From: Clostridia bacterium
GTDB taxonomy: Bacteria > Bacillota > Clostridia > Oscillospirales > CAG-382
Reading direction: 5' to 3'
Assembly (NCBI GenBank): GCA_017466805.1
Contig: JAFTTN010000071.1
Span: 1 to 51,656, forward strand
DNA: 51,656 nt
Shown in pieces: positions 34,511 to 51,564 of the stretch (position 1 is its first letter; each line of letters starts with the position of its first letter). Below the pieces are notes generated by a model, which ran no database searches, had not been told where the DNA came from, and worked only from the letters and a program-made list of their open reading frames with translations. The translations under genes and the position numbers were made by a program.

Positions 34511-34545
34511 TTATATACAAAATCTGCCGAAGGGAGAGCCGAAAA

Positions 34546-35172
34546 ATGAAGCAAATATCGGTTATGCGGTCGACGCTCGGAAGACTGCCGATTTATCTTG
34601 AATTTTTGCAAGGTCTTGATATTTCCGAAAACGAAAACATATCCGCCACCGTTATTGCGAAATCGCTCGGGCTCGGCGAGGTACAGGTCCGCAAGGATTT
34701 GAATGCCGTTAGCGGCGCGGGCAGACCGAAATTGGGCTACCGCACCGACGAGCTGATAAAGCGTATTTACGAGGTGCTCGGCAGAAACGATATTAAAAAA
34801 GCCGTAATTATCGGCGCGGGTAAGCTTGGAAATGCTTTGCTCGAATACAACGGCTTTAGGGATTACGGACTTTTGATAACCGCGGCGTTCGATATAGACG
34901 AAAGCAAGGCGGGTATTACCGAGGCGGGCAAGGAAATATTGCCGCTTACGCAGCTTGAAGAATACGTTCTGCGCGAAGGTGTGCGAATTGCGGTGATAAC
35001 CGTTCCCGCAAGCTCGGCGCAAAGCATTTGTGACAGATTGGTAGGCTGCGGTATAGAGGCGATATGGAATTTTGCCCCGTGTGCTTTATGCGTTCCCGAG
35101 GGAGTTTTGCTCCAGCAGGAAAATTTAGCGCTTTCGCTTGCGCATTTAAAGCTTACGATGAACAACGGATAA
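34546..35172 (+). CDS. rex: Redox-sensing transcriptional repressor Rex
   Basis: Senses the NADH/NAD+ ratio and controls fermentation and hydrogen genes. 208 residues. N-terminal winged helix (SVMRSTLGRLPIYLEFLQ, LGLGEVQVRKDLNAVSGAGRPKLGY); Rossmann NADH-binding domain (VIIGAGKLGNALLEY); conserved end IWNFAPCALCVPEG. Start ATG 34546 follows GGGAGA at 8 bases; a longer upstream frame crosses the palindrome and promoter and is not used. It is followed after 43 bases by the hydrogenase-related genes and probably co-transcribed with them. Confidence 0.93.
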   Translation: MKQISVMRSTLGRLPIYLEFLQGLDISENENISATVIAKSLGLGEVQVRKDLNAVSGAGRPKLGYRTDELIKRIYEVLGRNDIKKAVIIGAGKLGNALLEYNGFRDYGLLITAAFDIDESKAGITEAGKEILPLTQLEEYVLREGVRIAVITVPASSAQSICDRLVGCGIEAIWNFAPCALCVPEGVLLQQENLALSLAHLKLTMNNG

Positions 35173-35215
35173 AAAATAATTAAATACATTTTTCAAAACA
35201 AAAGGAGTATTTATC

Positions 35216-35455
35216 GTGAAAGTAACTATTTGCATCGGCAGCTCGTGTCATCTTAAGGGTTCGCGCCAGGTCGTTGAAACGCTTCAGCGTCTTGTTGCGG
35301 AAAACAATCTCGAGGACAAGGTAGAGCTCGGCGGCACCTTCTGCATCGGCAACTGCCAGCAGGGCGTTTGTGTCACCGTTGACGGCGAGTTCTTCTCGGT
35401 CAGCCCCGATACCGCAATCGAATTCTTTAACACCCGGATACTCGCAAAGGCGTAA
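35216..35455 (+). CDS. Thioredoxin-like [2Fe-2S] ferredoxin (NuoE C-terminal type)
   Basis: 79 residues, a thioredoxin-fold [2Fe-2S] protein with cysteines spaced as in NuoE and HydA-associated subunits: CIGSSC (C-x4-C) near the start and CIGNCQQGVC (C-x3-C) near 43-47. It probably shuttles electrons to or from the hydrogenase-type proteins that follow; small NuoE-like genes often accompany HydS. GTG start with AAGGAG 8-9 bases upstream. It lies 43 bases after rex and 37 bases before the hydS-like gene. Confidence 0.88.
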   Translation: MKVTICIGSSCHLKGSRQVVETLQRLVAENNLEDKVELGGTFCIGNCQQGVCVTVDGEFFSVSPDTAIEFFNTRILAKA

Positions 35456-35492
35456 AGCCTTGTTCCCTAATTGACTCAAAGGAGTTGATACT

Positions 35493-37175: not shown

Positions 37176-37188
37176 ACGGAGTGGTCCG

Positions 37189-38631
37189 ATGGAAAAAATG
37201 AAGATGAGAAAATTTGATACCAAGGTGCAGCACCTTAAATACAAGGTACTGCGCGAGGTAGCGAGAAACGCTTGGGAGGATACGCTGTACGACAAGATAC
37301 TTGATATCCCCGCGGCTATCTCGCCCGGCAAAACGCCGACTATGCGCTGCTGCGTATACAAGGAACGCGCAATACTTACCGAAAGAGTTAAGCTTGCGAT
37401 GGGCGGCGACAAGGAAAACCCCAACGTTATAGAGGTAATCGACATCGCCTGCGACGAATGTCCCGCGGCGGGCTACGAGGTTACCGACTCCTGCAGAGGC
37501 TGTCTTGCACACCGCTGCGAAGACGTTTGCAAGCGCGGTGCGATAACCTTTGACCAGAACCACGTTGCGCACATCGACAAATCGAAGTGCGTTGAATGCG
37601 GTCAGTGTGCGAAGGTTTGCCCCTTCAGTGCGATTGCGAACAGAAAGCGTCCCTGCCAGAACGCTTGTAAGGTAAAGGCGATTTCGATTAACGCGAACAA
37701 CGCGGCAAGCATCGACAACAACAAATGTATTTCCTGCGGTGCCTGCGTTTACCAGTGTCCTTGGGGTGCGATTTCCGAAAAATCGTTTATACTCGACGTT
37801 ATAAGCATTCTTAAAAACAGCAATTACAGCAAGAACTACAAGGTTTACGCGGTGGTTGCCCCCACGATTTCGAGCCAATTCACCTATGCGAAGCTCGGTC
37901 AGGTTATTACCGGACTTAAGGAGCTCGGCTTCCACACGGTTGTCGAAGCGGCGCTCGGCGCGGATATGGTTGCGCTCGACGAATCGAAGGAATTGGTTGA
38001 AAAGGGATTCCTTACCAGCTCCTGCTGTCCCGCGTTCGTTATGTACGTTCAAAAGAACTTCCCCGATTTAGTTCCCTTTATATCGCACAACCCCTCGCCT
38101 ATGACGGCGATTTCGAAGTATATAAAGAAGAACGAGCCGAATTCGAAGATAGTATTCATCGGTCCGTGCACCGCGAAGAAGATGGAATTCCAGCTTGACG
38201 AAGTTAAGCCTTACGTCGATTCGGTTATTACCTTCGAGGAGCTTCAGGCATTGTTCGACAGCAAGGGTGTCGATATTACCGAGCTTGACGAGGGCGTGCT
38301 CGACAACGCTTCCTACTTCGGAAGAATATTCGCAAGATGCGGCGGTCTTTCGGATGCCGTTTCGCAGGCTATTAAGGAGCAGGGTATTGAAAACTTCCTG
38401 CTGAAAGCAATTTCCTGCGACGGTATAGAGGAATGCAGAACCGCATTGCTTAAGAAGAGCAAGAACGTGCTTGACGTCAACTTTATCGAGGGTATGGCTT
38501 GCGTTGGCGGCTGTATCGGCGGTGCAGGCTGTCTGACACACGGCGAAAAGAACAAGGCCGAGGTCGATAAATACGGCAGAGAGGCATTGGAAAAGACTAT
38601 TACCGACGCTGTAAGCGTACTTAATCTATAA
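37189..38631 (+). CDS. Group B [FeFe] hydrogenase
   Basis: 480 residues, soluble. The N-terminal region of unclear role has CDECP and CRGCLAHRCEDVC, followed by two [4Fe-4S] clusters (CVECGQCAKVCP, CISCGACVYQCP). The H-cluster domain has P1 SSCCPAF (about 277), P2 GPCTAKKME (about 324) and P3 GMACVGGCIGGAG (about 434), sequences typical of group B monomeric hydrogenases. Likely makes or takes up H2 with ferredoxin. The start ATG 37189 has CGGAG 8 bases upstream, 13 bases after hydS. The maturation genes hydEFG are not in this window. Ends before a block of four hairpins. Confidence 0.9.
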   Translation: MEKMKMRKFDTKVQHLKYKVLREVARNAWEDTLYDKILDIPAAISPGKTPTMRCCVYKERAILTERVKLAMGGDKENPNVIEVIDIACDECPAAGYEVTDSCRGCLAHRCEDVCKRGAITFDQNHVAHIDKSKCVECGQCAKVCPFSAIANRKRPCQNACKVKAISINANNAASIDNNKCISCGACVYQCPWGAISEKSFILDVISILKNSNYSKNYKVYAVVAPTISSQFTYAKLGQVITGLKELGFHTVVEAALGADMVALDESKELVEKGFLTSSCCPAFVMYVQKNFPDLVPFISHNPSPMTAISKYIKKNEPNSKIVFIGPCTAKKMEFQLDEVKPYVDSVITFEELQALFDSKGVDITELDEGVLDNASYFGRIFARCGGLSDAVSQAIKEQGIENFLLKAISCDGIEECRTALLKKSKNVLDVNFIEGMACVGGCIGGAGCLTHGEKNKAEVDKYGREALEKTITDAVSVLNL

Positions 38632-38882: not shown

Positions 38883-39827
38883 ATGACTAAAATTACCATT
38901 ATCGGCACAGGCAGCGTTGGTTCCACCATCGCATACACTCTTACGGTTCAGGGTATTGCATCCGAAATCGTTATGATCGACATTAACGGCGAAAAGGCTA
39001 TGGGCGAAGCGCTCGATATCCGTCAGGGTACCCCCTTCTGCCACCCCTGCACCATTTATGCAGGCAGCTATTCGGACGCGGCAGGCTCCGATATCGTTAT
39101 TCTTACCTCGGGCGTTGCAAGAAAGCCCGGTCAGTCCAGACTTGATCTTGCGCAGGTAAACGTTAACATTACCAAGCAGATTATTCCCGAAATCACCAAA
39201 TACGCTCCCGACGCAACCTACGTTATCGTAAGCAACCCCGTTGATATACTCACCTACACCTTCTGCAAGTATTCGGGTCTTCCCACCGAAAAGATTATCG
39301 GCTCGGGTACTATTCTCGATACCTCGAGATTGCGTTCGAGAATTTCGGAATACTACCACGTTAACCAGCAGAACGTTCACGCATACGTGCTCGGCGAGCA
39401 CGGCGACAGCTGCTTCGTGCCCTGGTCGCTTGCAAACATAAGCAACGTTCCGGTTAAGGACTACCGCGAATCGCTTCTCGGCACCGAAGGCGTATACCCC
39501 GAGCTTAACGAGGCAGAGGTTGAGGAATACGTTCGCAAATCCGGCGCAAGAGTTATTCAGCGCAAGGGCGCAACCTTCTATGCAGTATCTATCTCGGTTT
39601 GCAGAGTAGTAAAAGCGCTTCTTTCGGGTATCGACACCACTCTTACCGTTTCTACCCTTTGTGAAGGCGAATACGGCATTAGCGACGTATGTCTTTCGCT
39701 TCTTAACATCGTTGGCAGCAAGGGCGCACACGGCAAGGTTCTGCTCCCGTTGAACGACAAGGAAATGGCTGCGCTCCACAACAGCGCAAACACCTTGAAG
39801 GATATTATTAAGGCTATTGAATTTTAA
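38883..39827 (+). CDS. mdh: Malate/lactate dehydrogenase family, probably malate dehydrogenase
   Basis: 314 residues, NAD-dependent. Rossmann motif GTGSVGSTIAYTL, catalytic His in GEHGDSCFVPWS. The backbone looks like L-lactate dehydrogenase, but the substrate loop reads SGVARKPGQSRLDL, with Arg at the position that is Gln in lactate dehydrogenases and Arg in malate dehydrogenases (standard LDH residue 102). Malate is therefore more likely. It is followed 29 bases later by fumarase and then a fumarate reductase operon, which fits oxaloacetate to malate on the way to succinate. A good AAGGAG precedes the ATG. Lactate activity cannot be excluded. Confidence 0.85.
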   Translation: MTKITIIGTGSVGSTIAYTLTVQGIASEIVMIDINGEKAMGEALDIRQGTPFCHPCTIYAGSYSDAAGSDIVILTSGVARKPGQSRLDLAQVNVNITKQIIPEITKYAPDATYVIVSNPVDILTYTFCKYSGLPTEKIIGSGTILDTSRLRSRISEYYHVNQQNVHAYVLGEHGDSCFVPWSLANISNVPVKDYRESLLGTEGVYPELNEAEVEEYVRKSGARVIQRKGATFYAVSISVCRVVKALLSGIDTTLTVSTLCEGEYGISDVCLSLLNIVGSKGAHGKVLLPLNDKEMAALHNSANTLKDIIKAIEF

Positions 39828-39856
39828 TCTAATATATTAGGAAGGATATTTGCGAA

Positions 39857-41233
39857 ATGGAATACCGTATAGAACACGATTCTATGGGCGAAATGAAGGT
39901 GCCTGCCGACAGTCTTTGGGCGGCACAAACCCAGAGAAGCCGTGAAAACTTCGAAATCGGCATTGGTATCGAAACGATGCCCGCAGAGATTATACACGCA
40001 TTCGGCGTTCTTAAAAAGGCTGCAGCGATTACCAACAACGCATTGAAGCCCGAAAAGATGACCGACGAAAAGCTGGGCGCGCTTAAGCAGGCGTGCGACG
40101 AGGTTATGGCAGGTGCGCTCAACGCTCACTTCCCTCTCGTAGTATGGCAGACCGGCTCGGGCACGCAGTCGAATATGAACTCGAACGAGGTTATTGCTAA
40201 CCGCTCGAACCAGATTCTCGGCAAAAAGCTGTTGCACCCGAACGACGACGTTAATATGAGCCAATCGTCGAACGACACCTTCCCCACCGCTATGCACATC
40301 GCGGCGGTTATCGCGCTGGAGGATAAGCTTATCCCCGCGGCAGAGGAGCTTATTGCAACTCTTATACGTCTTGAAGCCGAAAACGAGGGCATTGTTAAGA
40401 GCGGCAGAACGCATCTTCAGGATGCAACCCCGATTAAGTTCAGCCAGGAAATTTCCGGCTGGAGATCGAGCTTGCAGAAGGACGTTGAGCTTATTAAGCG
40501 TTCTATCGACCCGCTTCGCGAGCTTGCTTTGGGCGGCACCGCGGTAGGTACCGGTCTTAACGCACCCAAGGGCTTTGCCGAAAGAGTTGCAGAGGAAGTC
40601 AGCAACATCACCGGCAAGAAGTTTATTACTGCCGAAAACAAATTCCATTCGCTTACCTCCAAGGACGAGCTTGTATTCGCACACGGTGCTATTAAAGCGC
40701 TCGCTTGCGATATGATGAAGATTGCGAACGACGTTCGTTGGCTCGCATCCGGCCCGAGAGACGGATTGGGAGAAATCTTTATTCCCGAAAACGAACCCGG
40801 CTCTTCGATTATGCCCGGTAAGGTCAACCCTACCCAGTGTGAAGCGGTTACTATGGTTGCGGTTCAGGTTATGGGTAACGACGTTGCCGTTTCGATGGCG
40901 GCATCGCAGGGCAATTTTGAGCTTAACGTATTTATGCCGGTTTGCATTTACAACTTCCTTCAGTCCGCAAGACTTCTTGCAGAAGCAATTATTTCCTTTA
41001 ACAGAAAGTGTGCTGTCGGCATTACCGCAAACCGCGAAAAGATGCACCACAATCTTCACAACTCGCTTATGCTCGTTACCGCGCTCAACCCCTATATCGG
41101 TTACGAAAATGCGGCAAAAACCGCAAAGAAGGCATACAAGGACAACATTTCGCTTAAGGAAGCCTGCGTAGAGCTTGGATTCCTTACCGCAGAACGTTTC
41201 GACGAGGTATTCCACCCCGAACAAATGGTTTAA
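39857..41233 (+). CDS. fumC: Fumarate hydratase, class II
   Basis: Interconverts malate and fumarate, here probably toward fumarate. 458 residues, the size of FumC. Motifs: TGSGTQSNMNSNEVIANR, SSNDTFPTAMH (substrate), KSGRTHLQDATPIKF and the family signature GSSIMPGKVNPTQCE. No iron-sulfur cysteines, so oxygen stable. It follows mdh by 29 bases with AGGAAGG as ribosome site. A 101-base gap with a hairpin separates it from hdrB. Confidence 0.96.
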   Translation: MEYRIEHDSMGEMKVPADSLWAAQTQRSRENFEIGIGIETMPAEIIHAFGVLKKAAAITNNALKPEKMTDEKLGALKQACDEVMAGALNAHFPLVVWQTGSGTQSNMNSNEVIANRSNQILGKKLLHPNDDVNMSQSSNDTFPTAMHIAAVIALEDKLIPAAEELIATLIRLEAENEGIVKSGRTHLQDATPIKFSQEISGWRSSLQKDVELIKRSIDPLRELALGGTAVGTGLNAPKGFAERVAEEVSNITGKKFITAENKFHSLTSKDELVFAHGAIKALACDMMKIANDVRWLASGPRDGLGEIFIPENEPGSSIMPGKVNPTQCEAVTMVAVQVMGNDVAVSMAASQGNFELNVFMPVCIYNFLQSARLLAEAIISFNRKCAVGITANREKMHHNLHNSLMLVTALNPYIGYENAAKTAKKAYKDNISLKEACVELGFLTAERFDEVFHPEQMV

Positions 41234-41274
41234 ATTTTGGTATAAACCGAAAAAATCTTTTATAGTTCCCGCGG

Positions 41275-41301
41275 CAAAGGCTTTGTACCGCAAAGCCTTT
41301 G
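41275..41301 (+). other. Hairpin between fumC and hdrB without a U run
   Basis: CAAAGGCTTTG (41275-41285) pairs with CAAAGCCTTTG (41291-41301) over a 5-base loop. No T tract follows, so it is more likely an mRNA processing or stability element than a terminator; it may set different levels for fumC and the hdr genes. Confidence 0.6.
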
Positions 41302-41334
41302 TATGCGAGGTTAACAATCGGAGGTATTTTTTAA

Positions 41335-42120
41335 ATGAAGTTCAGCTACTTCCCCGGCTGTACGCTTAAAAACAAGGCAAAGTCGCTTGATATATACGCA
41401 AGACGCTCTGCCGAAAAGCTTGGCGTTACGCTGGAAGAAATAGAAAACTGGCAATGCTGCGGCGGCGTTTTTACCACCGCGAAGGACGAAGTTGCCACAA
41501 AGCTTTCTTCGGTTCGTATTCTTAAGGACGCACAGAAGAAGCAGCAGGCGTTGGTTACTGTATGCTCTGCCTGCCACAACGTTGTTAAGCAGACCAACTA
41601 TGCGATGCAGAACGACAAGGAATTTGCGGGCAAGGTTAACCGTTATATGTCCGAGGACGAATACAACGGCGAAACGCAGATTTACCACTATCTCGAGCTT
41701 TTACGCGACGTTATCGGCTACGACAAAATAAAAGAAAGCGTAGTTAACCCTATCGGCAAAAAGGTTGCGGCTTATTACGGCTGTCTGCTTTTGCGCCCCA
41801 ACGCAGTTATGCGTATGGACGACCCCGAGAATCCCACTATTATCGAGGATTTGATTAAGGCATTGGGCGGCGAAGCGGTTATTTACGGCTACCGCAACGA
41901 ATGCTGCGGCGGTTACGTTCGTATGGAAAGCCCCGAGCTTGCAGGCAAGAAGAGCCAAACTGTAATCGAAAGCGCAAAGAAGGCGGGTGCCGAGGTTATC
42001 GTTACCGCTTGTCCGCTTTGCAAATACAATCTTGAAAAATCGGGCTGCGATATTCCCGTAGTATATCTTACCGAGCTTCTTGCAGAGGCTTTGGGTGTTA
42101 AGGAGGATACGAATGAGTAA
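41335..42120 (+). CDS. hdrB: Heterodisulfide reductase subunit B-like protein
   Basis: 261 residues with two CCG domains that bind noncubane [4Fe-4S] clusters: GCTLKNK, WQCCGG, CSACHN, then GCLLLRPN, ECCGGY, CPLCKYN. In methanogens HdrB is the site that reduces heterodisulfide; in bacteria homologues reduce other disulfides or pass electrons to a partner. Here hdrBCA, mvhD, flx genes and frdBA are in one run, so its electron acceptor may be fumarate reductase. AATCGGAGG stands upstream of the ATG. The gene overlaps hdrC by 8 bases. Confidence 0.92.
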   Translation: MKFSYFPGCTLKNKAKSLDIYARRSAEKLGVTLEEIENWQCCGGVFTTAKDEVATKLSSVRILKDAQKKQQALVTVCSACHNVVKQTNYAMQNDKEFAGKVNRYMSEDEYNGETQIYHYLELLRDVIGYDKIKESVVNPIGKKVAAYYGCLLLRPNAVMRMDDPENPTIIEDLIKALGGEAVIYGYRNECCGGYVRMESPELAGKKSQTVIESAKKAGAEVIVTACPLCKYNLEKSGCDIPVVYLTELLAEALGVKEDTNE

Positions 42121-42505
42121 CAGCAAAAAGTATCTTCAGGAGGAGATAATCCGCACGAGCGGAGTAAACCCCAAAAAATGTATGCGTTGCGGCAAGTGCT
42201 CGGCAACCTGCCCTGCATACGACGAGATGGAATACCATCCTCATCAGTTCGTTTATATGGTTGAAAGCGGTAATATCGAGCCGTTGCTCGAATCCGATTC
42301 GCTTTACAGATGTCTTACCTGCTTTGCTTGCGTGGACAGATGTCCGAGAAGCGTTGAGCCCGCAAAGCTTGTTGAGGCGGTACGCCTTGCGGCAATAAGA
42401 AAGCAGGGCAACAACCGTATGACCGCGAACGACGTTCCCGAGCTTATCGACGACGAAACACCGCAGCAGTTGATAGTTTCGGCATTCAGAAAGTACACTA
42501 AGTAA
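42113..42505 (+). CDS. hdrC: Heterodisulfide reductase subunit C-like protein
   Basis: 130 residues. Two [4Fe-4S] clusters: CMRCGKCSATCP and CLTCFACVDRCP, the HdrC pattern, followed by a helical region. It links HdrA to HdrB. The ATG at 42113 overlaps the hdrB stop region; AAGGAGG is 6-7 bases upstream. A longer frame from 42080 lies within hdrB and is not used. Confidence 0.92.
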   Translation: MSNSKKYLQEEIIRTSGVNPKKCMRCGKCSATCPAYDEMEYHPHQFVYMVESGNIEPLLESDSLYRCLTCFACVDRCPRSVEPAKLVEAVRLAAIRKQGNNRMTANDVPELIDDETPQQLIVSAFRKYTK

Positions 42506-42520
42506 GGAGGAAAAGGCAAA

Positions 42521-44515
42521 ATGCAAAGAATTGGTGTATTTGTATGTTGGTGCGGCAGCAACATTGCCGGTACGGTTGACGTTGTGGCTGTTGCCGAGGC
42601 TTTGAAGAAAGAGCCCGGAGTAGTCTTTTCCGCCAACTATCAGTATATGTGCTCGCAGGCAGGTCAGGACCTTATTAAAAACGCGATAAAGGAACACAAT
42701 CTTACCGGTATCGTGGTTTGCTCCTGCTCGCCCCGTATGCACGAAGCCACCTTCCGCAAAACCGCGGCGGCGGCAGGTCTTAATCCCTATATGGTTGAGA
42801 TCGCAAACATCCGCGAGCAATGCTCGTGGGTACACAAGGAAATGCCTATCGGTACCGAAAAGGCTATTATTTTGGGTAAAGCGGCGGTTGCAAAGGTTAA
42901 CCTCAACACCCCGCTTGTTCCCGGCGAATCGCCGGTTACCAAGCGTGCGCTTGTTATCGGCGGCGGTATTGCGGGTATCCAGACCGCGCTCGATATTGCC
43001 GACGCAGGATTCGAGGTAGACATAGTTGAAAAGAAGCCGACTATCGGCGGTAAGATGGCACAGCTCGACAAGACCTTCCCCACGCTTGACTGTGCGGCTT
43101 GTATCCTTACTCCGAAAATGGTTGACGTTGCACAGAACGAAAAGATACGCATCTTCTCGTACAGCGAGGTGACCGACGTTAAGGGCTTCGTTGGTAACTT
43201 TGACGTTACTATTAAAAAGAAGGCTCGCTACGTTAAAGAAGAGCTTTGTACCGGTTGCGGTGCTTGTACCGAAAAATGTCCGATGAAGAAGGTCCCCAAC
43301 GACTTCAACTTGAATATGGACACCAAGCGCGCAATTTACATTCCCTTTGCTCAGGCAGTACCGAAGGTTGCAACCATCGACCCCGATTACTGCAATATGC
43401 TTAAAAACGGCAAATGCGGCGTTTGCTCGAAGGTTTGTGCCGCAGGTGCTATCGATTACACCCAGAAGGATGAATTTATCGAAGAAAAGTACGGTGCTAT
43501 AGTCGTTGCAACCGGCTTTAACCCCATTAGTATGGATAAGTTCGATGAATTTGCATACAATCAGTCGAAGGACGTTATTACCTCTCTCGAATTCGAGCGT
43601 TTGACCAACGCGGCAGGACCTACCGCGGGCAAGCTTTTGCGTCCCTCCGACCACAAGCATCCCGAAAAGATTGTATTCGTTCAGTGCGTAGGCTCGCGCT
43701 GTGACGCTTGCAACGAAAAGGGCAAGGAATACTGCTCGAAGATTTGCTGTATGTATACCGCAAAGCACGCGATGCTTACGAGAGATAAATACCCCGACAC
43801 CGAGGTTTACGTATTCTATATCGACGTAAGAACTCCCGGCAAGAACTTTGATGAATTCTACCGCAGAGCAGTTGAGGAATACGGCGTTCACTATATTAAG
43901 GGTATGGTCGGCAAGGTAGTACCCGAGGGCGACAAGCTTATCGTTCAGGCTTCCGACCTGCTCGACAACAAGCAATTAAAGATAGAAGCAGACCTTGTCG
44001 TTCTTGCCGCGGCTATCGAGCCCGACAAATCGGCACGTCCGCTTGCAACGCTTCTTACCGCAAGCATGGATACCAACGACTTCTTTACCGAGGCTCACCC
44101 CAAGCTTCGCCCGGTAGAAAGCCCCACCGCCGGCGTATTCCTTTCGGGTGCCTGCCAGGGTCCGAAGGATATTCCCGAAACGGTAGCACAGGCAGGCGCG
44201 GCAGCTTCGAAGGTTATCGGTCTGCTTGCCAAGGATAAGCTTACCGGCAACCCCTGCGTTGCACATTCGAACGAAATGATGTGTAACGGCTGTTCGAGCT
44301 GTGAAAGAGTTTGCCCCTACGGTGCGATTACGTACGAGGACAAGGAATTCCGTATGCCCGACAGAACAACGCTTATGCGCCGCATTGCAGTCGTTAACCC
44401 TGCGGTATGCCAGGGCTGCGGTTGCTGTACGGTTGCCTGCCCCTCGGGCGCAATGGACCTTAAGGGCTTTGCAAGCGAGCAGATTATAGCGGAGGTAGAC
44501 GCAATATGCAAGTAA
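42521..44515 (+). CDS. hdrA: Heterodisulfide reductase subunit A-like protein (FAD, bifurcation core)
   Basis: 664 residues, the length of typical HdrA. N-terminal CWCGSN/SCSPRMHEATF segment, FAD-binding IGGGIAGIQTALD (about 146-158), [4Fe-4S] motif CTGCGACTEKCP (about 243), a Cys-rich CGVCSKVC (about 308), a second flavin-binding stretch, and two C-terminal clusters CNGCSSCERVCP (about 588) and CQGCGCCTVACP (about 630). HdrA carries the flavin at which electrons are bifurcated in methanogens. No selenocysteine (no in-frame TGA) and no fused MvhD. It overlaps mvhD by 10 bases. Confidence 0.94.
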   Translation: MQRIGVFVCWCGSNIAGTVDVVAVAEALKKEPGVVFSANYQYMCSQAGQDLIKNAIKEHNLTGIVVCSCSPRMHEATFRKTAAAAGLNPYMVEIANIREQCSWVHKEMPIGTEKAIILGKAAVAKVNLNTPLVPGESPVTKRALVIGGGIAGIQTALDIADAGFEVDIVEKKPTIGGKMAQLDKTFPTLDCAACILTPKMVDVAQNEKIRIFSYSEVTDVKGFVGNFDVTIKKKARYVKEELCTGCGACTEKCPMKKVPNDFNLNMDTKRAIYIPFAQAVPKVATIDPDYCNMLKNGKCGVCSKVCAAGAIDYTQKDEFIEEKYGAIVVATGFNPISMDKFDEFAYNQSKDVITSLEFERLTNAAGPTAGKLLRPSDHKHPEKIVFVQCVGSRCDACNEKGKEYCSKICCMYTAKHAMLTRDKYPDTEVYVFYIDVRTPGKNFDEFYRRAVEEYGVHYIKGMVGKVVPEGDKLIVQASDLLDNKQLKIEADLVVLAAAIEPDKSARPLATLLTASMDTNDFFTEAHPKLRPVESPTAGVFLSGACQGPKDIPETVAQAGAAASKVIGLLAKDKLTGNPCVAHSNEMMCNGCSSCERVCPYGAITYEDKEFRMPDRTTLMRRIAVVNPAVCQGCGCCTVACPSGAMDLKGFASEQIIAEVDAICK

Positions 44516-44940
44516 AAGAATACAAGCCGCTTATCGTGGCGTTTTGCTGTAACTGGTGCTCCTATGCGGGCGCAGACCTTGCGGGCAACAACAGACTTAA
44601 CTATCCCGCAGACGTAAAGATTATTCGTGTTCCCTGCTCCTGCAGAGTTAATCCGATGTTCGTGCTTCGCGCATTCCAGCGCGGTGCAGACGGCGTAATA
44701 CTTTGCGGCTGTCACCCCGGTGACTGCCACTACACCTCGGGTAACTATTATACCCGTCGCAGAATGGCGCTTTTGTTCTCGATGCTTGATTATTTGTGCA
44801 TTGAAAGAGAAAGAACGAGAGTTGAATGGGTTTCTGCGGCTGAAGGTGCGAAGTTTGCCGCAACGATGAACGATTTCGCCGAAAAGGTTGCTGCATTAGG
44901 CGAAAACAAGAGATTGGAGGACCTCCGATGCAAAAAATAA
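44506..44940 (+). CDS. flxD: MvhD/FlxD-like [2Fe-2S] electron-transfer protein
   Basis: 144 residues. MvhD pattern: CCNWCSYAGADLAG, PCSCRVNP and CGCHPGDCHY, a [2Fe-2S]-binding protein that delivers electrons to HdrA. It lacks any hydrogenase large or small subunit nearby. In sulfate reducers and acetogens the same protein as FlxD connects NAD(P)H-reactive Flx subunits to HdrA, which fits the next three genes. Overlaps both neighbours. Confidence 0.9.
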   Translation: MQVKEYKPLIVAFCCNWCSYAGADLAGNNRLNYPADVKIIRVPCSCRVNPMFVLRAFQRGADGVILCGCHPGDCHYTSGNYYTRRRMALLFSMLDYLCIERERTRVEWVSAAEGAKFAATMNDFAEKVAALGENKRLEDLRCKK

Positions 44941-45914
44941 CCCGTGATATTTTGGTCGAAAAGGCGGTTTCCCTGCTTGAAAACGGCACTGTTTGCTGTG
45001 TATTGGGCTGGAAGAAGGGCGAATTCGATTACGACGTTACTCCCGCTTTGTTCGAAAGCAAAGAGGAAATCGAAAAGGATTTCGTTTACGACGACTTTTG
45101 CGGCGCAAACTTTTCCAAATATCTTGTTAAAAAGACTATTAAGGCAGAGGGAAAGATTTTGGTCTTCCTTAAGCCCTGCGATACCTACAGCTTCAACCAG
45201 CTCCTTACCGAGCACAGATTTGACAGAGAAAAGGTATACGCTATCGGCATCCCCTGCGAGGGTATGGCCGACATAAACAAAATCCGCGCTATTGCAGGCG
45301 ACGGTATTTCCGAAATCAAATGCGGCGAAAAAATCGTTGTTGACACCATTTACGGCGACAAGCACGAAATCGACGCGAAGGACGTTCTTCTTGAACGCTG
45401 CATTAACTGCAAGAGCAAGAAGCACGTGAATTACGACGAGCTTTTGGGCGACGAGGGCGAAGTGATTGAATCCAACCGCTTTGACGAGGTTGCAAGGCTT
45501 GAAGCGATGACACCCGACGAACGCTTTGCATTCTGGCAAAACGAGCTTTCGAGGTGCATTCGTTGCAACGCCTGCCGCGACGTTTGCCCCGCCTGCACTT
45601 GTGAAAAGTGCGTATTCGACAACCCCAAGAGCGGCGTTGAAAACAAAGCACCCGCAAACGAGTTCGAAGAAAAGATGTTCCATATTATACGTGCATTCCA
45701 CGTTGCAGGACGCTGCACCGACTGCGGCGAATGCTCACGCGTGTGCCCCCAGCACATTCCCTTGCATTTGCTCAACCGCAAATTTATTAAAGACATCGAC
45801 AGCTTTTACGGTGAATACCAGGCAGGCGCAGAGGTTGGCTCGCGCGCGCCGCTGGTTAACTACACCACAAACGATTTGGAGCCTTCCGAGGTATTTGAAG
45901 GGAGGGGCGAATAA
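44928..45914 (+). CDS. flxC: Flx-type iron-sulfur subunit (FlxC-like)
   Basis: 328 residues, cytoplasmic. The N-terminal half has LKPCDTYSFNQ and IPCEGMADINK, features of the F420-hydrogenase-beta and sulfhydrogenase-related family. Two C-terminal [4Fe-4S] motifs are CIRCNACRDVCPACTC (about 209-224) and CTDCGECSRVCP (about 262). It probably relays electrons between the NAD(P)H-reactive FlxA and FlxD/HdrA. The naming as FlxC rather than FlxB is from gene order and is not firm. Stop and the next start overlap as TAATG. Confidence 0.8.
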   Translation: MQKITRDILVEKAVSLLENGTVCCVLGWKKGEFDYDVTPALFESKEEIEKDFVYDDFCGANFSKYLVKKTIKAEGKILVFLKPCDTYSFNQLLTEHRFDREKVYAIGIPCEGMADINKIRAIAGDGISEIKCGEKIVVDTIYGDKHEIDAKDVLLERCINCKSKKHVNYDELLGDEGEVIESNRFDEVARLEAMTPDERFAFWQNELSRCIRCNACRDVCPACTCEKCVFDNPKSGVENKAPANEFEEKMFHIIRAFHVAGRCTDCGECSRVCPQHIPLHLLNRKFIKDIDSFYGEYQAGAEVGSRAPLVNYTTNDLEPSEVFEGRGE

Positions 45915-46930
45915 TGCTTAAATGCTCATACGATGCTTTGAACGGTATATTTGCCAAAATTGCCGAAAACGCAAAGCTTTATCTCCCCGCCGACAAGGAC
46001 GGCAAGACAGATTACACCAAATGGGCTGAGGGTGTTGAATGGAGCAATGCTCTTAACACCGCAAGATCGCCCAAGGATTTCTTCTTCCCCCAGGTTGAAG
46101 ACCTTATGAAATTCAAGGTCGAGGGCAAGAGCATTGCTATCGACGACATACGCGAGGAATCCGAGGATTTCGTTGTATTCGGCGTACGCGCCTGCGACGT
46201 AAGAAGCTTTGACATTCTCGACAGAGTATTCCTTATCGAGCCCTACGACAGCTATTACGCTTCGCGCAGGGAGCACGGAGTTATTATTTCCTGCGCCTGC
46301 ACCAGACCGACCGAAACCTGCTTCTGCAAGACCTTCGGCATCGATTGCACCAACCCCGGCGGCGATATTACCGTTTGGAGATGCGAGGACGCACTTTATT
46401 GGCAGGCAAACACCGAAAAGGGCGAAAAGCTTTTGGGCACGCTCGGTCTTGAAAGTGCGGACGAAAGCGCGGTTAACGCCCAGAAGGAGCAGACCGCAAG
46501 GATTATGGAAAAGCTCCCGCTTGCAAAGCTTACCACCGAAGGATTCGGCGGCGGCAAAACAATGGAACTGTTCAACAAGCCCGAATGGAAATCGCTTTCC
46601 GAAGCCTGCCTTGGCTGCGGCACCTGCACTTTCGTATGCCCGACCTGCCAATGCTACGACGTTAAGGATTTTAACACCGGCAACGAAATAATACGTTATC
46701 GCTGCTGGGACTCCTGTATGTATTCCGACTTTACCAAGATGGCGCACGGCAACAACCGTTTGAGCCAGGTAGAAAGATTCAGACAGAGATTTATGCACAA
46801 GCTGGTTTATTACCCCGAAAACAACGAAGGAATATTCGGCTGTGTAGGCTGCGGCAGATGCCTTGCAAAATGCCCGATATCTATGAATATCGTTAAAGTT
46901 ATGAAAACTATCGGAGGTAGCGCAGAATGA
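45914..46930 (+). CDS. flxB: Flx-type iron-sulfur subunit (FlxB-like, sulfhydrogenase beta family)
   Basis: 338 residues. Resembles anaerobic sulfite reductase subunit A and sulfhydrogenase beta subunits: VFGVRACDVRSFDILD, a Cys-rich segment (CACTRPTETCFCK), then two C-terminal [4Fe-4S] clusters CLGCGTCTFVCPTCQC (about 232) and CVGCGRCLAKCP (about 310). It pairs with the FAD/NAD-binding protein that follows with ATGA overlap, as the homologous beta and gamma subunits do in other operons. Confidence 0.85.
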   Translation: MLKCSYDALNGIFAKIAENAKLYLPADKDGKTDYTKWAEGVEWSNALNTARSPKDFFFPQVEDLMKFKVEGKSIAIDDIREESEDFVVFGVRACDVRSFDILDRVFLIEPYDSYYASRREHGVIISCACTRPTETCFCKTFGIDCTNPGGDITVWRCEDALYWQANTEKGEKLLGTLGLESADESAVNAQKEQTARIMEKLPLAKLTTEGFGGGKTMELFNKPEWKSLSEACLGCGTCTFVCPTCQCYDVKDFNTGNEIIRYRCWDSCMYSDFTKMAHGNNRLSQVERFRQRFMHKLVYYPENNEGIFGCVGCGRCLAKCPISMNIVKVMKTIGGSAE

Positions 46931-47760
46931 ACACACGCAGAGAACCCTTGATACCCGTAGTCGGCGTTATAACCGACGTTCGTTTGGACACCCCCGATAT
47001 TAAGACCTTCCGTGTCGTCACCCCCGACGGCAAGAAGGCGTTTGACCACAGACCCGGTCAGTGCGCTATGCTTTCGATTCCCGGTGTGGGCGAGGCGATG
47101 TTTTCTATCACCTCCTCCCCCACCAACACCGAATATATGGAATTTTCGATAAAGAAGTGCGGCTGTGTTACCGAATGGTTACATCAGGCAGAGGTTGGTC
47201 AGAACATCACCATCCGCGGTCCTTACGGCAACCCCTTCCCCGTTGACACCGAGTTTGCGGGCAAGAATTTGCTGTTTATCGCAGGCGGTGTTGCGCTTGC
47301 CCCCTTGCGCTCGGTTATCAACTACGTTCGTCATTACAAGGACAGATACGGAAAGATTGATATAGTTTACGGCGCAAGAAGCAAGGAAGACCTGCTTCAG
47401 TACCGCGAAATTATCGACGAATGGTGCAAGGACGAGGGAGTTACCGTTTATCTCACAATCGACCGCGAGCAAGCCGATTGGGACGGACACGTCGGCTTCG
47501 TACCCAACTACGTTAAGGAGCTCGGCTTTGATACCGACAAAACCGTTATTCTTTGCGGACCTCCTATTATGATTAAGTTCACGCTTGCAGGCCTTACCGA
47601 GCTCGGATTTAAAAAGGAGCAGGTTTACACCACTCTTGAATTAAAAATGAAGTGTGCGATAGGCAAATGCGGCAGATGTAACGTAGGCTCGAAGTACGTT
47701 TGCAAGGACGGCCCCGTTTTCCGTCTTGACGAGCTCGACGAGCTTCCCAACGAATATTAA
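46927..47760 (+). CDS. flxA: FlxA-like FAD/NAD(P)-binding oxidoreductase subunit
   Basis: 277 residues, ferredoxin-reductase fold as in sulfhydrogenase gamma and sulfite reductase subunit B. FAD-binding FSITSSPTN (about 57-65), pyridine-nucleotide motif IAGGVALAPLRSV (about 117), CGPPIM near the C-terminus, and a C-terminal [2Fe-2S] site CAIGKCGRCNVG (about 243). It is the likely entry point for NADH electrons into the Flx-Hdr complex. Cofactor choice (NADH or NADPH) cannot be read with certainty. Followed 17 bases later by frdB. Confidence 0.9.
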   Translation: MNTRREPLIPVVGVITDVRLDTPDIKTFRVVTPDGKKAFDHRPGQCAMLSIPGVGEAMFSITSSPTNTEYMEFSIKKCGCVTEWLHQAEVGQNITIRGPYGNPFPVDTEFAGKNLLFIAGGVALAPLRSVINYVRHYKDRYGKIDIVYGARSKEDLLQYREIIDEWCKDEGVTVYLTIDREQADWDGHVGFVPNYVKELGFDTDKTVILCGPPIMIKFTLAGLTELGFKKEQVYTTLELKMKCAIGKCGRCNVGSKYVCKDGPVFRLDELDELPNEY

Positions 47761-47777
47761 TAAAGGAGATTCCGAAA

Positions 47778-48452
47778 ATGGCAAATATGGTCAACATTTT
47801 TCTGTTCGGCAAAAAGTACGAGGTTCCGGACAATTTAACTATAATGAACGCTATGGAATACGCGGGCTACCAGCTTGTTCGCGGCTGCGGCTGCAGAAAC
47901 GGCTTTTGCGGTGCTTGCGCTACCATTTACCGCATTAAAGGCGACAAGGAATTGAAGGCGTGCCTTGCCTGCCAGACCAAAGTAGAGGACAATATGTATA
48001 TTGCCACTCTTCCCTTCTTCCCGCTTGTTAAGCAGGTTTACGATATTAACAAGGTTCCGGTTACCGAAACGGTTATGATGCAGCTTTACCCCGAAATTTA
48101 CGCCTGCATCGGCTGCAACGCCTGCACCAAGGCCTGCACCCAGGAGCTTAACGTTATGCAGTACATCGCTTATGCACAGCGCGGCGATTTCGAAAAGTGC
48201 GCAGAGGAATCCTTCGACTGCGTTATGTGCGGCGTTTGCTCGTCGCGCTGCCCCGCAGGTATTTCGCATCCTCAGGTTGCAATGCTTGCACGCCGTATAA
48301 ACGGCAAATATCTCGCGCCCGGCTGTGAACACCTTAACGACCGCGTTCGCGAAATTAAGGACGGCACTTTCAACGAGCTTATCGAGGCTTTGATGCAGAA
48401 GCCTATCGACGAGATGAAAGAGCTTTACAACAACCGCGAGATTGAGAAATAA
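47778..48452 (+). CDS. frdB: Fumarate reductase iron-sulfur subunit-like protein
   Basis: 224 residues. N-terminal [2Fe-2S] ferredoxin domain (GCGCRNGFCGACATIY then CLACQ, residues about 36-65) and C-terminal [4Fe-4S] motifs CIGCNACTKAC (about 110) and CVMCGVCSSRC (about 148), as in SdhB/FrdB/TfrB. It lacks the HdrB-like CCG domain that methanogen TfrB carries at its C-terminus; a separate hdrB is present upstream instead. It would take electrons from the Hdr/Flx proteins or a ferredoxin and pass them to FrdA. AAAGGAG before the ATG. 14 bases to frdA. Confidence 0.88.
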   Translation: MANMVNIFLFGKKYEVPDNLTIMNAMEYAGYQLVRGCGCRNGFCGACATIYRIKGDKELKACLACQTKVEDNMYIATLPFFPLVKQVYDINKVPVTETVMMQLYPEIYACIGCNACTKACTQELNVMQYIAYAQRGDFEKCAEESFDCVMCGVCSSRCPAGISHPQVAMLARRINGKYLAPGCEHLNDRVREIKDGTFNELIEALMQKPIDEMKELYNNREIEK

Positions 48453-48466
48453 GGAGGAGAAAAGAA

Positions 48467-50071
48467 ATGTATTCCGAAAAGTTTCAAAAATCCTTGGCGG
48501 CAGTTGAAGCGGCAAGAGAAAAGAACATTGCGCTCGAGCCCGCAAGAATGACCGCACAGCAGAAAACAGATCTTCTTGCAGAATATCATCCCGACTACAA
48601 GCAGGATGAATTCGAGCTTTTAAAAATCGGTCCCAACAAGGGCGACAAGGTTCCGAAGGAGCTTGCGGCTACGCTTCAGGCACACAGCCGTATAAACGGT
48701 GCCAATATCGACCTTGAAAACCCCGATTACGACGTTGACGTTTTGGTTATCGGCGGCGGCGGTGCAGGCTCTTCGGCCGCTATCGAAGTACACGAGGCCG
48801 GCGCAAACGTTATGATAGTTACAAAGCTTCGTATCGGCGATGCCAACACTATGATGGCAGAGGGCGGTATTCAGGCGGCAGACAAGCCCAACGACTCCCC
48901 CGCTATTCACTTTGTAGACGCATTCGGCGGCGGTCACTTTGCAGCAAAGCGCGAGCTTTTGCAAAAGCTTGTTTGCGATGCTCCCGAGGCGATCCAATGG
49001 CTTTCCGAGCTCGGCGTTGAGTTCGACAAGACCGAGGACGGCACTATGGTTACCACCCACGGCGGCGGTACCTCGAGAAAGCGTATGCACGCGGCAAAGG
49101 ACTACTCCGGCGCAGAAATTATGAGAACCCTGCGCGATGAGGTTCTTAACAGAAACATTCCCGTTGTTGATTTCACCAGCGCAATCGAGCTTATTCTTGA
49201 TGAAAACGGCAACGCGGCAGGCGCAGTGCTTTTGAATATGGAAACCAAGGAGCTTTTGGTTGCGAAGGCAAAGACTGTTATTATCGCGACCGGCGGTGCG
49301 GGCAGAATGCACTACCAGGGCTTCCCCACCTCCAACCACTACGGCGCTACCGCAGACGGATTGGTGCTTGGCTACCGCGCAGGTGCAAAGCTTCTTTATG
49401 CCGAAACGCTTCAGTACCACCCGACCGGCGCGGCTTACCCCGAGCAGATTTTCGGTGCGCTCGTTACCGAAAAGGTTCGCTCGCTCGGCGCAAAGCTTGT
49501 TAACGTAAACGGCGAGGTATTTATGCACCCGCTCGAAACGCGTGACGTTTCCGCGGCATCGATTATACGCGAATGCTCGACAAGAAACAACGGTGTTGAA
49601 ACCGACCAAGGTCTTGCAGTATGGCTCGACACTCCGATGATCGAGGCTATCGGCGGCGAAGGCACTATCGAAAAGAGAATCCCCGCGATGATGAGAATGT
49701 TCGGCAAGTACGGCATCGACATCCGCAAGGAGCCGATTCTCGTTTACCCCACACTTCACTACCAGAACGGCGGTCTTGATATTACCCCCGACGGTATGAC
49801 CACCAACGTAAAGAATCTTTTCGTTGCGGGCGAAGCTGTCGGCGGAATACATGGCAAGAACAGACTTATGGGTAACTCTTTGCTTGATATTATCGTATTC
49901 GGCAGAATCGCAGGTAAATCGGCAGGCGCGGCTTGCAAGGATATTACCGTTGGCAAGCTTAGCCTTGACCACGTAGCGAAATTCGAAAAGGAAATTGCAG
50001 ATGCAGGCATCGTAACCGATACCGTTTCGCCGAAGCTGCTTCCCGATTACACCAGAAAGGTTAACGGTTAA
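48467..50071 (+). CDS. frdA: Fumarate reductase flavoprotein subunit-like protein
   Basis: 534 residues, FAD-dependent, SdhA/FrdA family. An N-terminal extension of about 85 residues (KNIALEPARMTAQQKTDLL) precedes the FAD motif IGGGGAGSSAAIE (about 95). Active-site regions: HGGGTSRKRMHA, LQYHPTG (about 314), HYQNGGL (about 430) and HGKNRLMGNSLLD (about 460-472). No membrane anchor gene (frdC/D) is present and neither subunit has a signal or membrane segment, so the enzyme is soluble. The substrate is inferred as fumarate from mdh and fumC upstream; a related dicarboxylate or enoate is possible. Confidence 0.85.
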   Translation: MYSEKFQKSLAAVEAAREKNIALEPARMTAQQKTDLLAEYHPDYKQDEFELLKIGPNKGDKVPKELAATLQAHSRINGANIDLENPDYDVDVLVIGGGGAGSSAAIEVHEAGANVMIVTKLRIGDANTMMAEGGIQAADKPNDSPAIHFVDAFGGGHFAAKRELLQKLVCDAPEAIQWLSELGVEFDKTEDGTMVTTHGGGTSRKRMHAAKDYSGAEIMRTLRDEVLNRNIPVVDFTSAIELILDENGNAAGAVLLNMETKELLVAKAKTVIIATGGAGRMHYQGFPTSNHYGATADGLVLGYRAGAKLLYAETLQYHPTGAAYPEQIFGALVTEKVRSLGAKLVNVNGEVFMHPLETRDVSAASIIRECSTRNNGVETDQGLAVWLDTPMIEAIGGEGTIEKRIPAMMRMFGKYGIDIRKEPILVYPTLHYQNGGLDITPDGMTTNVKNLFVAGEAVGGIHGKNRLMGNSLLDIIVFGRIAGKSAGAACKDITVGKLSLDHVAKFEKEIADAGIVTDTVSPKLLPDYTRKVNG

Positions 50072-50089
50072 TTCGGAGGTATATTCACA

Positions 50090-51352
50090 ATGAGTTTATT
50101 TGGAGGAGTTATCTCCATAAGCAACACTTCTACTCTGCTTTTCGTGGTTTTTGCCGTTTTAATGGCAGGCTACGCGTTGGGCAGAATCACCGTTAAGGGA
50201 ATATCCTTGGGTGATGCGGGCGTATTTATAATCGCTTTGCTTATCGGTGCGCTTTGCTTCAGCGTTAACTCGGAAGGCGCGTTACTTTTTGCAGGCTCTG
50301 CAAAGGAATACGACTTCAACAGCGGTCTTTCGCTTATCGAAAGCCTTGGACTCGTTCTTTTCGTTACCTCGGTCGGCTTTATTGCGGGCCCGAAATTCTT
50401 TGGTAACTTCAAAAGAAACTTTAAGTCCTACGTGCTTTTAGGTCTTATTATCATCATCGCGGGCGGTCTTTCCGCCGCAGGCTGTATCGCTTTGGGCGAG
50501 GTTGTCGGCTACGGCGGCTCGATTACCGAGCAGGACGGCTTCGTTGCAATGATCGTAGGTCTGCTTTCCGGCTCGCTTACCTCTACCCCCGCGTTTTCTG
50601 CGGCGAAGGCAACGGTTGCCGATGAATACCAAGCGCTCGTATCGGTCGGTCACGGCATAGCATACATCTTCGGCGTTATCGGCGTAGTTCTCTTCGTACA
50701 GCTTATTCCCAAGCTTAACAAGGCGAATATGGAAGAAGAGCGCGCAAAGCTTGTTATTAAAGAGGAAGGCAACAAAAAAACCTTCGCCGGCAAGCTTTTT
50801 GATATCGACCATATGGGTATCGCGGCGTTCTCGCTTGCGGCTATACTCGGTACAGTTATCGGTCAGATTAAAATTCCGCTTTCGAGCGACGGCTTGAGCG
50901 GCACCTGCTTCTCGCTTACCACAACCGGCGGTTGCTTGCTTGTTAGCTTGGTTATGGGTCACTTCTCGCGCATTGGCAGAATTAACATTATGCCCTCGCA
51001 GCATACCTTGAAGCTCTTCCGCGAGCTTGGTCTTGTGCTCTTCTTGGTTGGTGCGGGTATCCCCGGCGGTGCGGAATTCGTTGAAAACTTCGATGCGATG
51101 TATTTCGTATACGGAATTATTATGACTATCGTTCCTATGATAATCGGATATTTATTTGCGAAATACGTGCTTAAGCTTAGTTTGCTTAACAACCTCGGCT
51201 CGATTACCGGCGGTATGACGAGCACCCCCGCGCTCGGTACTCTTATCGGCACGGCAGGCACCGAGGACGTTGCGGCGGCTTACGCGGCTACCTACCCTAT
51301 CGCTCTTATTGCAGTAGTTCTCGTTTCGCAGTTCTTGATTATACTGCTTTAA
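50090..51352 (+). CDS. AspT/YidE/SucE-like membrane exchanger (AAE family)
   Basis: 420 residues, about ten membrane helices in two homologous halves: FVTSVGFIAGPKFFGNF and FLVGAGIPGGAEFVENF are the repeated AspT/YidE/YbjL motifs, with GSLTSTPAFSAAK and GGMTSTPALGTL as matching second motifs. The family includes aspartate:alanine antiporters and a succinate exporter (SucE). Its position, 18 bases after frdA at the end of the succinate-forming operon, favours export of succinate or exchange for another C4-dicarboxylate; this is inference. Its 3' end runs into hairpin-rich DNA. Confidence 0.82.
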   Translation: MSLFGGVISISNTSTLLFVVFAVLMAGYALGRITVKGISLGDAGVFIIALLIGALCFSVNSEGALLFAGSAKEYDFNSGLSLIESLGLVLFVTSVGFIAGPKFFGNFKRNFKSYVLLGLIIIIAGGLSAAGCIALGEVVGYGGSITEQDGFVAMIVGLLSGSLTSTPAFSAAKATVADEYQALVSVGHGIAYIFGVIGVVLFVQLIPKLNKANMEEERAKLVIKEEGNKKTFAGKLFDIDHMGIAAFSLAAILGTVIGQIKIPLSSDGLSGTCFSLTTTGGCLLVSLVMGHFSRIGRINIMPSQHTLKLFRELGLVLFLVGAGIPGGAEFVENFDAMYFVYGIIMTIVPMIIGYLFAKYVLKLSLLNNLGSITGGMTSTPALGTLIGTAGTEDVAAAYAATYPIALIAVVLVSQFLIILL

Positions 51353-51364
51353 TTAAAAAATATT

Positions 51365-51564
51365 ACGAGAGAGAAACTTTTTATAAAAAGTTTCTCTCTC
51401 GTGCTCTTTCTTCAAAAATTTTAAATTAAAAAACGATAAATATCGATTTCAAAACAATTATCAAAAACAAGTTTGTATAACAAAAAAATGACACACTTAA
51501 AACTTTTTATAATAAAAAGTTTTGAAGAGAGCACGAGAGGGACTTTTTCAAAAGTCCCTCTCGT
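51365..51564. repeat. Nested inverted-repeat intergenic element, copy 2
   Basis: Three hairpins: ACGAGAGAGAAACTTTTT with its exact complement (51365-51402), AAAACTTTTTAT / ATAAAAAGTTTT (51499-51523) and ACGAGAGGGACTTTT / AAAAGTCCCTCTCGT (51533-51564). An outer inverted pair, CTCTCGTGCTCTTTC...CAAAA against TTTTGAAGAGAGCACGAGAG, brackets an AT-rich core with GATAAATATC. The architecture matches 3500-3670. It lies between convergent genes and probably also ends transcription of the frd operon. Confidence 0.55.

Follow-up and report, generated by a model that had tools for sequence, protein, structure and literature searches.

In the FlxABCD-HdrABC system of Desulfovibrio vulgaris, the high-potential electron acceptor is reportedly proposed to be a disulfide. 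Fumarate has also been proposed in this role: for the 'succinate operon' of Pseudoclostridium thermosuccinogenes, the available part of one paper links fumarate reduction to ferredoxin reduction via Flx-Hdr (Koendjbiharie et al. 2020, PMC7282089), cites a 2019 preprint with the same operon and proposal (Koendjbiharie and van Kranenburg), and gives the operon as about fourfold upregulated under CO2 limitation, although not significantly for every subunit. The accessible sections on vent symbionts place tfrAB among the flxABCD-hdrABC genes of Thioflavicoccus and tubeworm symbionts (PMC6315080), with Flx-Hdr proposed to pass electrons to thiol:fumarate reductase in symbionts including Endoriftia (PMC6315080, PMC11636981). 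The coupling is not listed in the available portions of a review (PMC5861303) and of a survey of bifurcating enzymes (PMC6085437; no 'fumarate'), and no report of its demonstration with purified enzyme was found in a literature search that most subscription papers lay outside.

The coupling is therefore already in print as a hypothesis, and here we describe a further case, located at positions 38883-51352 of a 51,656-nucleotide stretch of DNA from an uncultured gut Clostridia bacterium (the whole stretch is hereafter the window). Its genes hdrBCA-flxDCBA-frdBA probably encode one soluble electron-bifurcating NADH (reduced nicotinamide adenine dinucleotide):ferredoxin/fumarate oxidoreductase, in which we infer complex formation, the electron path and bifurcation. 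New here are the strong co-occurrence of the components, the occurrence of rearranged but intact gene sets, the lack of clear quinone or DsrC partners, and the modularity of FrdBA.

Subunits of the operon and the proposed reaction

Open reading frames, their translations and Pfam/NCBIfam profiles gave twelve genes in the order mdh, fumC, hdrB, hdrC, hdrA, flxD, two iron-sulphur (Fe-S) flx genes, flxA, frdB, frdA and an AspT-family transporter gene, all on the plus strand and all with intact reading frames, with intergenic distances of -13 to +18 bases from hdrB onward and 101 bases between fumC and hdrB. The gene content, order, single strand and tight spacing of the original prediction were thus recovered, and all seven FlxABCD-HdrABC subunit types lie within one gene cluster; the gene that had been termed mvhD-like is indeed of the FlpD/MvhD type (PF02662), and corresponds to the FlxD subunit. 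NCBIfam cut-offs were not reached by any of the nine Hdr/Flx/Frd proteins, whose names are based on Pfam cut-offs, profile similarity and context, with flxB and flxC assigned by domain content and position.

Residue conservation was assessed in proteins from 102 loci that had no internal stops and reached at least 85% of the length of their window counterpart, the window protein being added afterwards to sets of 97 FrdA, 96 FrdB, 75 HdrB, 77 HdrC and 80 HdrA sequences (L049, L069, L084 and L150 were filtered out of the FrdA set and L137 has no FrdA and, although not an Flx-Hdr locus, contributes to the HdrC, HdrA and mvhD sets). Among PDB entries, HdrA is closest to 5odc, a methanogen HdrA of the bifurcating type (686 bits, residues 3-661); of the 34 cysteines in the window HdrA, 31 are conserved in 77 or more of the 81 sequences. 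The ten CCG cysteines of HdrB, ligands of both non-cubane clusters, are kept in 76/76 sequences, eight cysteines of HdrC in 78/78 (including one 408-residue protein from L137) and four C-terminal cysteines of FlxA in 94/94. As a separate observation, codon 195 of the L196 hdrA (6720-8702) is an in-frame TGA that falls within the motif to which C194 of the window protein belongs; it likely specifies selenocysteine, and a single in-frame TGA was reported for many HdrA matches of the phylum sample described below.

FrdA folds like the flavoproteins of complex II (best Foldseek match, 1kf6 FrdA, E value 3.2e-28), and its catalytic residues H318, E335, R338, H431 and R466, assigned by motif and by alignment to SdhA, are kept in 98/98 sequences. 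The position of the histidine that binds flavin adenine dinucleotide (FAD) covalently in SdhA/FrdA is Asn127 in the window protein and Asn in 97 of the 98. In E. coli FrdA, losing this histidine costs succinate oxidation more than fumarate reduction, and the Asn therefore fits a one-way fumarate reductase. The protein also carries an N-terminal extension of 88 residues, 17 of them near-invariant, and the usual C-terminal domain gave no match in Pfam/NCBIfam. In the predicted model (mean predicted local distance difference test score (pLDDT) 80.2), block means of 79-97 over residues 1-90 indicate that the extension is predicted to fold with good confidence, several active-site segments fall below 50, and the best complex II matches span about 450 columns and are uninformative on the extension. 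An apparent partial extension in outgroup FrdA rows is probably read-through of upstream DNA and was not used.

FrdB keeps the ligands C39, C44, C47 and C65 and both CxxCxxCxxxC motifs (twelve cysteines) in 97/97 sequences. This Fer2/Fer4 protein departs from a canonical FrdB in that its final cluster motif is CxxCxxCxxxC, not that of a [3Fe-4S] cluster, and in that its dicluster part scores best as RnfC-like. The claim that the parts of TfrB occur here as separate genes is borne out by the resemblance, below cut-offs, of FrdB to the TfrB N terminus and of HdrB to the TfrB C-terminal half (HdrB also resembles SdhE, the anchor of menaquinol:fumarate reductase), yet neither is a Tfr by family score: TfrB scored 51 bits for HdrB and 40 for FrdB of a required 385, and TfrA 341 of 718. 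No membrane anchor gene was present among the operon genes, to which the search was confined, in agreement with the prediction of an anchor-free frdAB. In the window, FrdBA is likely coupled to Flx-Hdr.

In the proposed mechanism, NADH would enter at FlxA and its electrons would pass through the Fe-S subunits FlxB, FlxC and FlxD to the flavin of HdrA. On the downhill branch, one electron would travel by way of HdrC and the HdrB CCG clusters to FrdB and on to the FrdA flavin, the site of fumarate reduction; the other would go to ferredoxin, giving as the net reaction 2 NADH + oxidised ferredoxin + fumarate -> 2 NAD+ + reduced ferredoxin + succinate. Mdh and FumC would convert oxaloacetate into the fumarate required, and the AspT-type transporter, a probable dicarboxylate exporter whose substrate is taken to be succinate, would export the product.

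Co-occurrence in the class, electron partners and energetics

A scan for FrdA relatives with one genome per species yielded at least 579 contig stretches, of which the best 80 were taken as loci; by their titles these are mostly metagenome-assembled genomes (MAGs) of Clostridia from ruminant and other gut samples, together with cultured Eubacterium coprostanoligenes, in whose strain ATCC 51222 the operon is present (L082). Among these best 80, flxA is in place in 73/74 related loci with room upstream and the nine-gene core is complete and in order in 58/59 with room, so that the arrangement is far beyond chance. Neighbouring genes are also retained where there is room: mdh in 46/55, fumC in 51/55, and an AspT-like gene within 2.5 kilobases of frdA in 53/69.

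An evenly drawn class sample comprised 391 genomes in addition to that of the window; here and in the phylum sample the best 3-4 candidates per genome were scored, so that the counts cover the matches listed and weaker copies may be missed. This FrdA, 59-89% identical to the window protein, was present in 54/391 genomes (about 1 in 7), the other matches listed being 39% identical or less, and HdrA of at least 50% identity was present in 55, including all 54 with FrdA, which belong to 23 families. This comparison leaves aside giant or split HdrA-like proteins (G070, G097, G102 and G178; pieces 31-52% identical) and counts G365 and G195 from pieces. FrdA and HdrA lie on one contig and strand in 49 genomes and on separate contigs of drafts in the remaining five. 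In 48 of the 49, HdrA is 3.9-4.2 kilobases upstream, while the 49th (G281, L136) has the order class I fumarase, frdBA, hdrBCA, flxDCBA; the finding that would have counted against the original prediction, hdr-flx genes of relatives never lying near frdAB, therefore did not arise. The same gene set recurs in other orders, frdBA-hdrBCA-flxDCBA in L136, L174, L178 and L191 and hdrCBA-flxDCBA-frdBA in L182. Shared ancestry inflates P values for such counts; a stronger argument comes from how many families are involved and from the variation in gene order.

The HdrA-only genome (G059) has a different locus. This, the only case of HdrA without this FrdA in the class sample (L137, 3860-12520), holds in a row, with names from sequence reading, a GlcD-like FAD-linked oxidase, two fused HdrC-HdrB-like proteins, a GcvH-like protein, HdrA, MvhD and an [FeFe]-hydrogenase-like protein.

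Other electron partners were searched for in 57 genomes (the 54 class genomes, the window genome, which is 73% complete, E. coprostanoligenes and the genome of locus L076). MenD and DsrC were over their cut-offs in 0/57, with weaker MenD matches in 44/57, which we take for other thiamine-diphosphate enzymes, and one weaker DsrC match; quinol and DsrC are thus not obvious alternative partners. PF02621 (MqnA/D) was barely over cut-off in 7/57, all at 27-34 bits and none in the window genome. A membrane-bound quinol:fumarate reductase was ruled out for the operon by the missing anchor gene, the missing [3Fe-4S] motif and the absence of MenD over cut-off, and DsrC was ruled out as the disulfide acceptor by the same 57-genome result.

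With standard potentials, the net reaction has a standard Gibbs energy change of -48.8 kJ/mol with ferredoxin at -420 mV and -33.4 kJ/mol with ferredoxin at -500 mV, and bifurcation is thermodynamically easy. Electron transfer from NADH to fumarate alone, at -68.1 kJ/mol, needs no bifurcation, and bifurcation is not demonstrable from sequence, so that Flx-Hdr-Frd could form one complex that acts as a plain soluble NADH:fumarate oxidoreductase and wastes the potential drop. We consider this very unlikely: a full bifurcating-type HdrA would then be unnecessary, and the window protein matches an experimentally studied HdrA over its whole length and belongs to a family that retains nearly all of its cysteines, as given above. 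That the complex runs in reverse in vivo, oxidising succinate and reduced ferredoxin together to form NADH, seems to us extremely improbable. Hdr-type enzymes are in principle reversible and some relatives have frdBA beside malic enzyme and fumarase, an arrangement found in propionate oxidisers, whereas the near-universal Asn at the covalent-FAD position, the probable exporter that closes the operon and the strongly exergonic character of the reaction towards succinate as written all speak for fumarate reduction. Taken together, the bifurcating-type HdrA, the intact HdrB, the soluble FrdAB with its catalytic residues, the absence of an operon anchor gene, the linkage and co-occurrence, and the thermodynamics partly support a bifurcating NADH:ferredoxin/fumarate oxidoreductase.

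FrdBA and its partners outside the class

The sample of the phylum comprised 347 other genomes, and its FrdA carriers are all from other classes. N-extended FrdA (51-63% identical) was present in 33/347, HdrA at E <= 1e-150 in 109, and both in 30. The loci were examined in 31 of the 33 genomes, 26 by fetched DNA (27 loci) and five by coordinates only, with G664 and G683 left out, revealing several kinds of partner. Flx-Hdr adjoins frdBA in 5/31 (one by coordinates), and a double-length HdrA stands beside further Hdr genes in 9/31 (four by coordinates; MvhD was sought in the others); hdrC-hdrB-frdB-frdA without an adjoining hdrA occurs in 4/31 (L175, L179, L181 and L186, preceded by class I fumarase genes in three cases), and a dicluster protein whose C-terminal part includes a hydrophobic stretch in 4/31, two with a formate-dehydrogenase-gamma-like cytochrome b part below cut-off. 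We read FrdBA as a portable head that is usually paired with a partner of the Hdr kind, a pattern in favour of HdrC/HdrB as the source of electrons for FrdB. Two loci deserve separate mention: L167 (12531-15743) encodes a 1070-residue protein of two HdrA-like halves beside hdrBA, mvhD and frdBA, and L177 holds a second N-extended FrdA of genome G515, with a long tree branch and no frdB recognised in the fetched stretch.

In a maximum-likelihood tree, the 51 N-extended FrdA form a single group (100/100). Six changes of the Flx-Hdr label are required on it, at least five of the changes being forced by well supported branches, with loss and gain indistinguishable, and the three gene orders sit in different parts of the tree. 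L165, L166 and L185, without Flx-Hdr and inside the Clostridia group, have long branches and unsure placement; most other unlinked rows have ordinary branch lengths (0.10-0.34).

Several observations weigh against a single Flx-Hdr-Frd complex. No fusion between Frd and Hdr/Flx subunits occurs among the 102 loci, where longer open frames extend by 61-151 codons at most and are read as overlaps, and the poor predicted model of FrdB (mean pLDDT 66.8) does not allow an HdrB-FrdB contact to be judged. RnfC was over cut-off in 31/57 genomes and in none of the proteins of the window genome, at its 73% completeness, which bears on how the host would use the extra ferredoxin; hydrogen formation by the two [FeFe]-hydrogenase-domain proteins of the window is a possible ferredoxin sink. 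In L076 (9309-11602) an intact frdBA has unrelated genes upstream and no adjoining Flx-Hdr, and its genome, a 1.2-megabase MAG that may be incomplete, gave a weak and partial HdrA match only, which makes it a natural case for FrdBA function without Hdr. Outside the class, three of the 33 FrdA genomes have no HdrA match at E <= 1e-60, and no redox partner is recognised beside frdBA in 9/31; near these nine lie pyruvate carboxylase (L165, and L166, which is 99% identical), malic enzyme (L170, and L173, L187 and L188, 68-85% identical to L170) or, in the rest except L185, a fumarase subunit or Mdh-like gene. All 12 HdrA loci fetched from other contigs or distant positions have hdrA grouped with flxA and flxB-like genes in a separate cluster. 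The Flx-Hdr link is thus not obligatory across the FrdBA family, and FrdBA is not tied to Flx-Hdr everywhere.

The stand-alone frdBA of L076, the nine outside-class loci without a recognised Hdr beside frdBA (three in genomes without an HdrA match), the separate Flx-Hdr clusters and the ordinary branch lengths of most unlinked rows would all fit a free-standing FrdAB fed by reduced ferredoxin or a small carrier, with Flx-Hdr passing electrons separately from NADH to ferredoxin and an undefined disulfide and the genes merely co-regulated. For the window we regard this as unlikely, given the co-occurrence in 54/54 genomes and the fixed linkage in the class, the recurrence of the same gene set in other orders, and the absence of any DsrC over cut-off to serve as the disulfide. 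The four loci with frdBA beside hdrCB and no hdrA point to HdrCB as the partner of FrdBA, and the long branches of L165, L166 and L185 are expected if a partner was lost, although their placement is unsure. The prediction of bifurcation with fumarate as acceptor is partly supported, by sequence, linkage and thermodynamics; it had already been published, and FrdBA also occurs without an adjoining Flx-Hdr or an HdrA match.

In a broader reading, to which we give even chances, the N-extended FrdBA pair would be a portable unit for fumarate reduction, free of an anchor, that has combined with four or more electron-input modules (Flx-Hdr; HdrCB alone; double-length HdrA with MvhD; membrane dicluster or dicluster-cytochrome b proteins), and in the window's class the Flx-Hdr version is nearly the only use of such an HdrA, so that a quinone-free, ferredoxin-generating succinate pathway would be a main energy-conserving route of many uncultured gut Clostridia. 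No description of several partner modules of FrdBA was found in the literature within reach of our search, which again excluded most subscription papers. If the bifurcating NADH:ferredoxin/fumarate oxidoreductase is real, succinate would be made without a membrane respiratory chain, energy would be conserved in reduced ferredoxin, and the reaction would still release about 33-49 kJ/mol at standard conditions; fumarate would join the acceptors of Hdr-based bifurcation, and succinate formation by fermenters without menaquinone would be easier to explain.

Genomic setting and comparison with known systems

The features of the operon and of its surroundings are collected in the table below. The start of hdrC was placed at the ATG behind GGAGG, the mechanical open reading frame beginning at TTG 42080. 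The hairpin behind the transporter gene is the longest in the scanned stretch, in which terminator-like sites overall were no commoner than in shuffles; no RNA family reached its gathering threshold. No Rex operator was found before mdh, the window having 6 matches with at most 3 mismatches against 4.3 expected, all elsewhere. A Rex-type regulator gene and two [FeFe]-hydrogenase-domain genes lie directly upstream of the operon, and a protein with a dockerin domain suggests a cellulosome-type component in the host.

Table. Positions of the operon genes, the terminator-like hairpin and other features in the window
Feature	Position	Strand	Description	Basis
mdh	38883-39827	+	malate/lactate dehydrogenase family, oxaloacetate -> malate	PF00056/PF02866
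fumC	39857-41233	+	class II fumarase	PF00206/PF10415
hdrB	41335-42120	+	two CCG domains	PF02754 twice
hdrC	42113-42505	+	2x[4Fe-4S]	Fer4_8; TIGR03290 below cut-off
hdrA	42521-44515	+	FAD/Fe-S, electron-bifurcating type (predicted)	NF040770 787 bits, cut-off 1100; 5odc 686 bits
flxD (mvhD-like)	44506-44940	+		PF02662 FlpD 183 bits
Fe-S subunit, flxC-like	44928-45914	+		Fer4 dicluster; position in Flx set
Fe-S subunit, flxB-like	45914-46930	+	AsrA/sulfhydrogenase-beta-like	PF17179; below cut-off: NF040829 181 bits, TIGR02910 135 bits
flxA	46927-47760	+	NAD(P)H/FAD oxidoreductase with 2Fe-2S (AsrB/sulfhydrogenase-gamma-like)	PF00175, PF10418, PF00970
frdB	47778-48452	+	[2Fe-2S] and two [4Fe-4S], no [3Fe-4S] motif, no CCG	Fer2/Fer4
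frdA	48467-50071	+	fumarate reductase flavoprotein with 88-residue N-terminal extension	PF00890 228 bits; TfrA-like 341 bits, cut-off 718
AspT/YidE-family transporter	50090-51352	+		PF06826 177 bits
Terminator-like hairpin	51364-51403	+	18-pair stem, directly behind transporter	
Dockerin protein	6842-9859		1005 residues	dockerin domain
Citrate synthase	24951-26489			
Calcineurin-like phosphoesterase	26500-28896			
529-residue frame	28901-30490		behind the phosphoesterase gene	no Pfam match at E <= 0.001
Rex-type redox regulator, then two [FeFe]-hydrogenase-domain genes	34483-38631	+	directly upstream of the operon	
The two [FeFe]-hydrogenase-domain genes	35493-38631	+	one with weak PAS match	

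Compared with quinol:fumarate reductases and SdhABE (MFR), the window operon shares the fold and catalytic residues of FrdA and, below cut-off, the resemblance of HdrB to SdhE, but it has no anchor gene, its FrdB has no [3Fe-4S] motif, and there is no convincing menaquinone pathway. Methanogen TfrAB has the same soluble architecture of FrdA with Fe-S and CCG parts, FrdB corresponding to the TfrB N terminus and HdrB to its C terminus; in contrast, the two halves of TfrB are separate genes in the window, and FrdB lacks CCG. FlxABCD-HdrABC of D. vulgaris (Ramos et al. 2015, as cited in PMC7282089, PMC6315080 and PMC5861303) consists of the same subunit types, whereas the window host has no DsrC over cut-off and its frdBA lies inside the operon. 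In the vent symbionts, as far as the available sections describe them, Flx-Hdr is likewise clustered with a fumarate reductase and direct electron transfer is proposed, but the genes belong to a reductive tricarboxylic acid cycle cluster with korABCD and are named Tfr (PMC6315080, PMC11636981). The operon of P. thermosuccinogenes, compared by its description in the accessible part of the paper, differs from that of the window, which has mdh at the front and an uncultured gut Clostridia bacterium as its host, and is alike in that one operon unites a fumarase, Flx-Hdr (the locus-tag range fits seven genes), two fumarate reductase genes and a putative transporter (PMC7282089).

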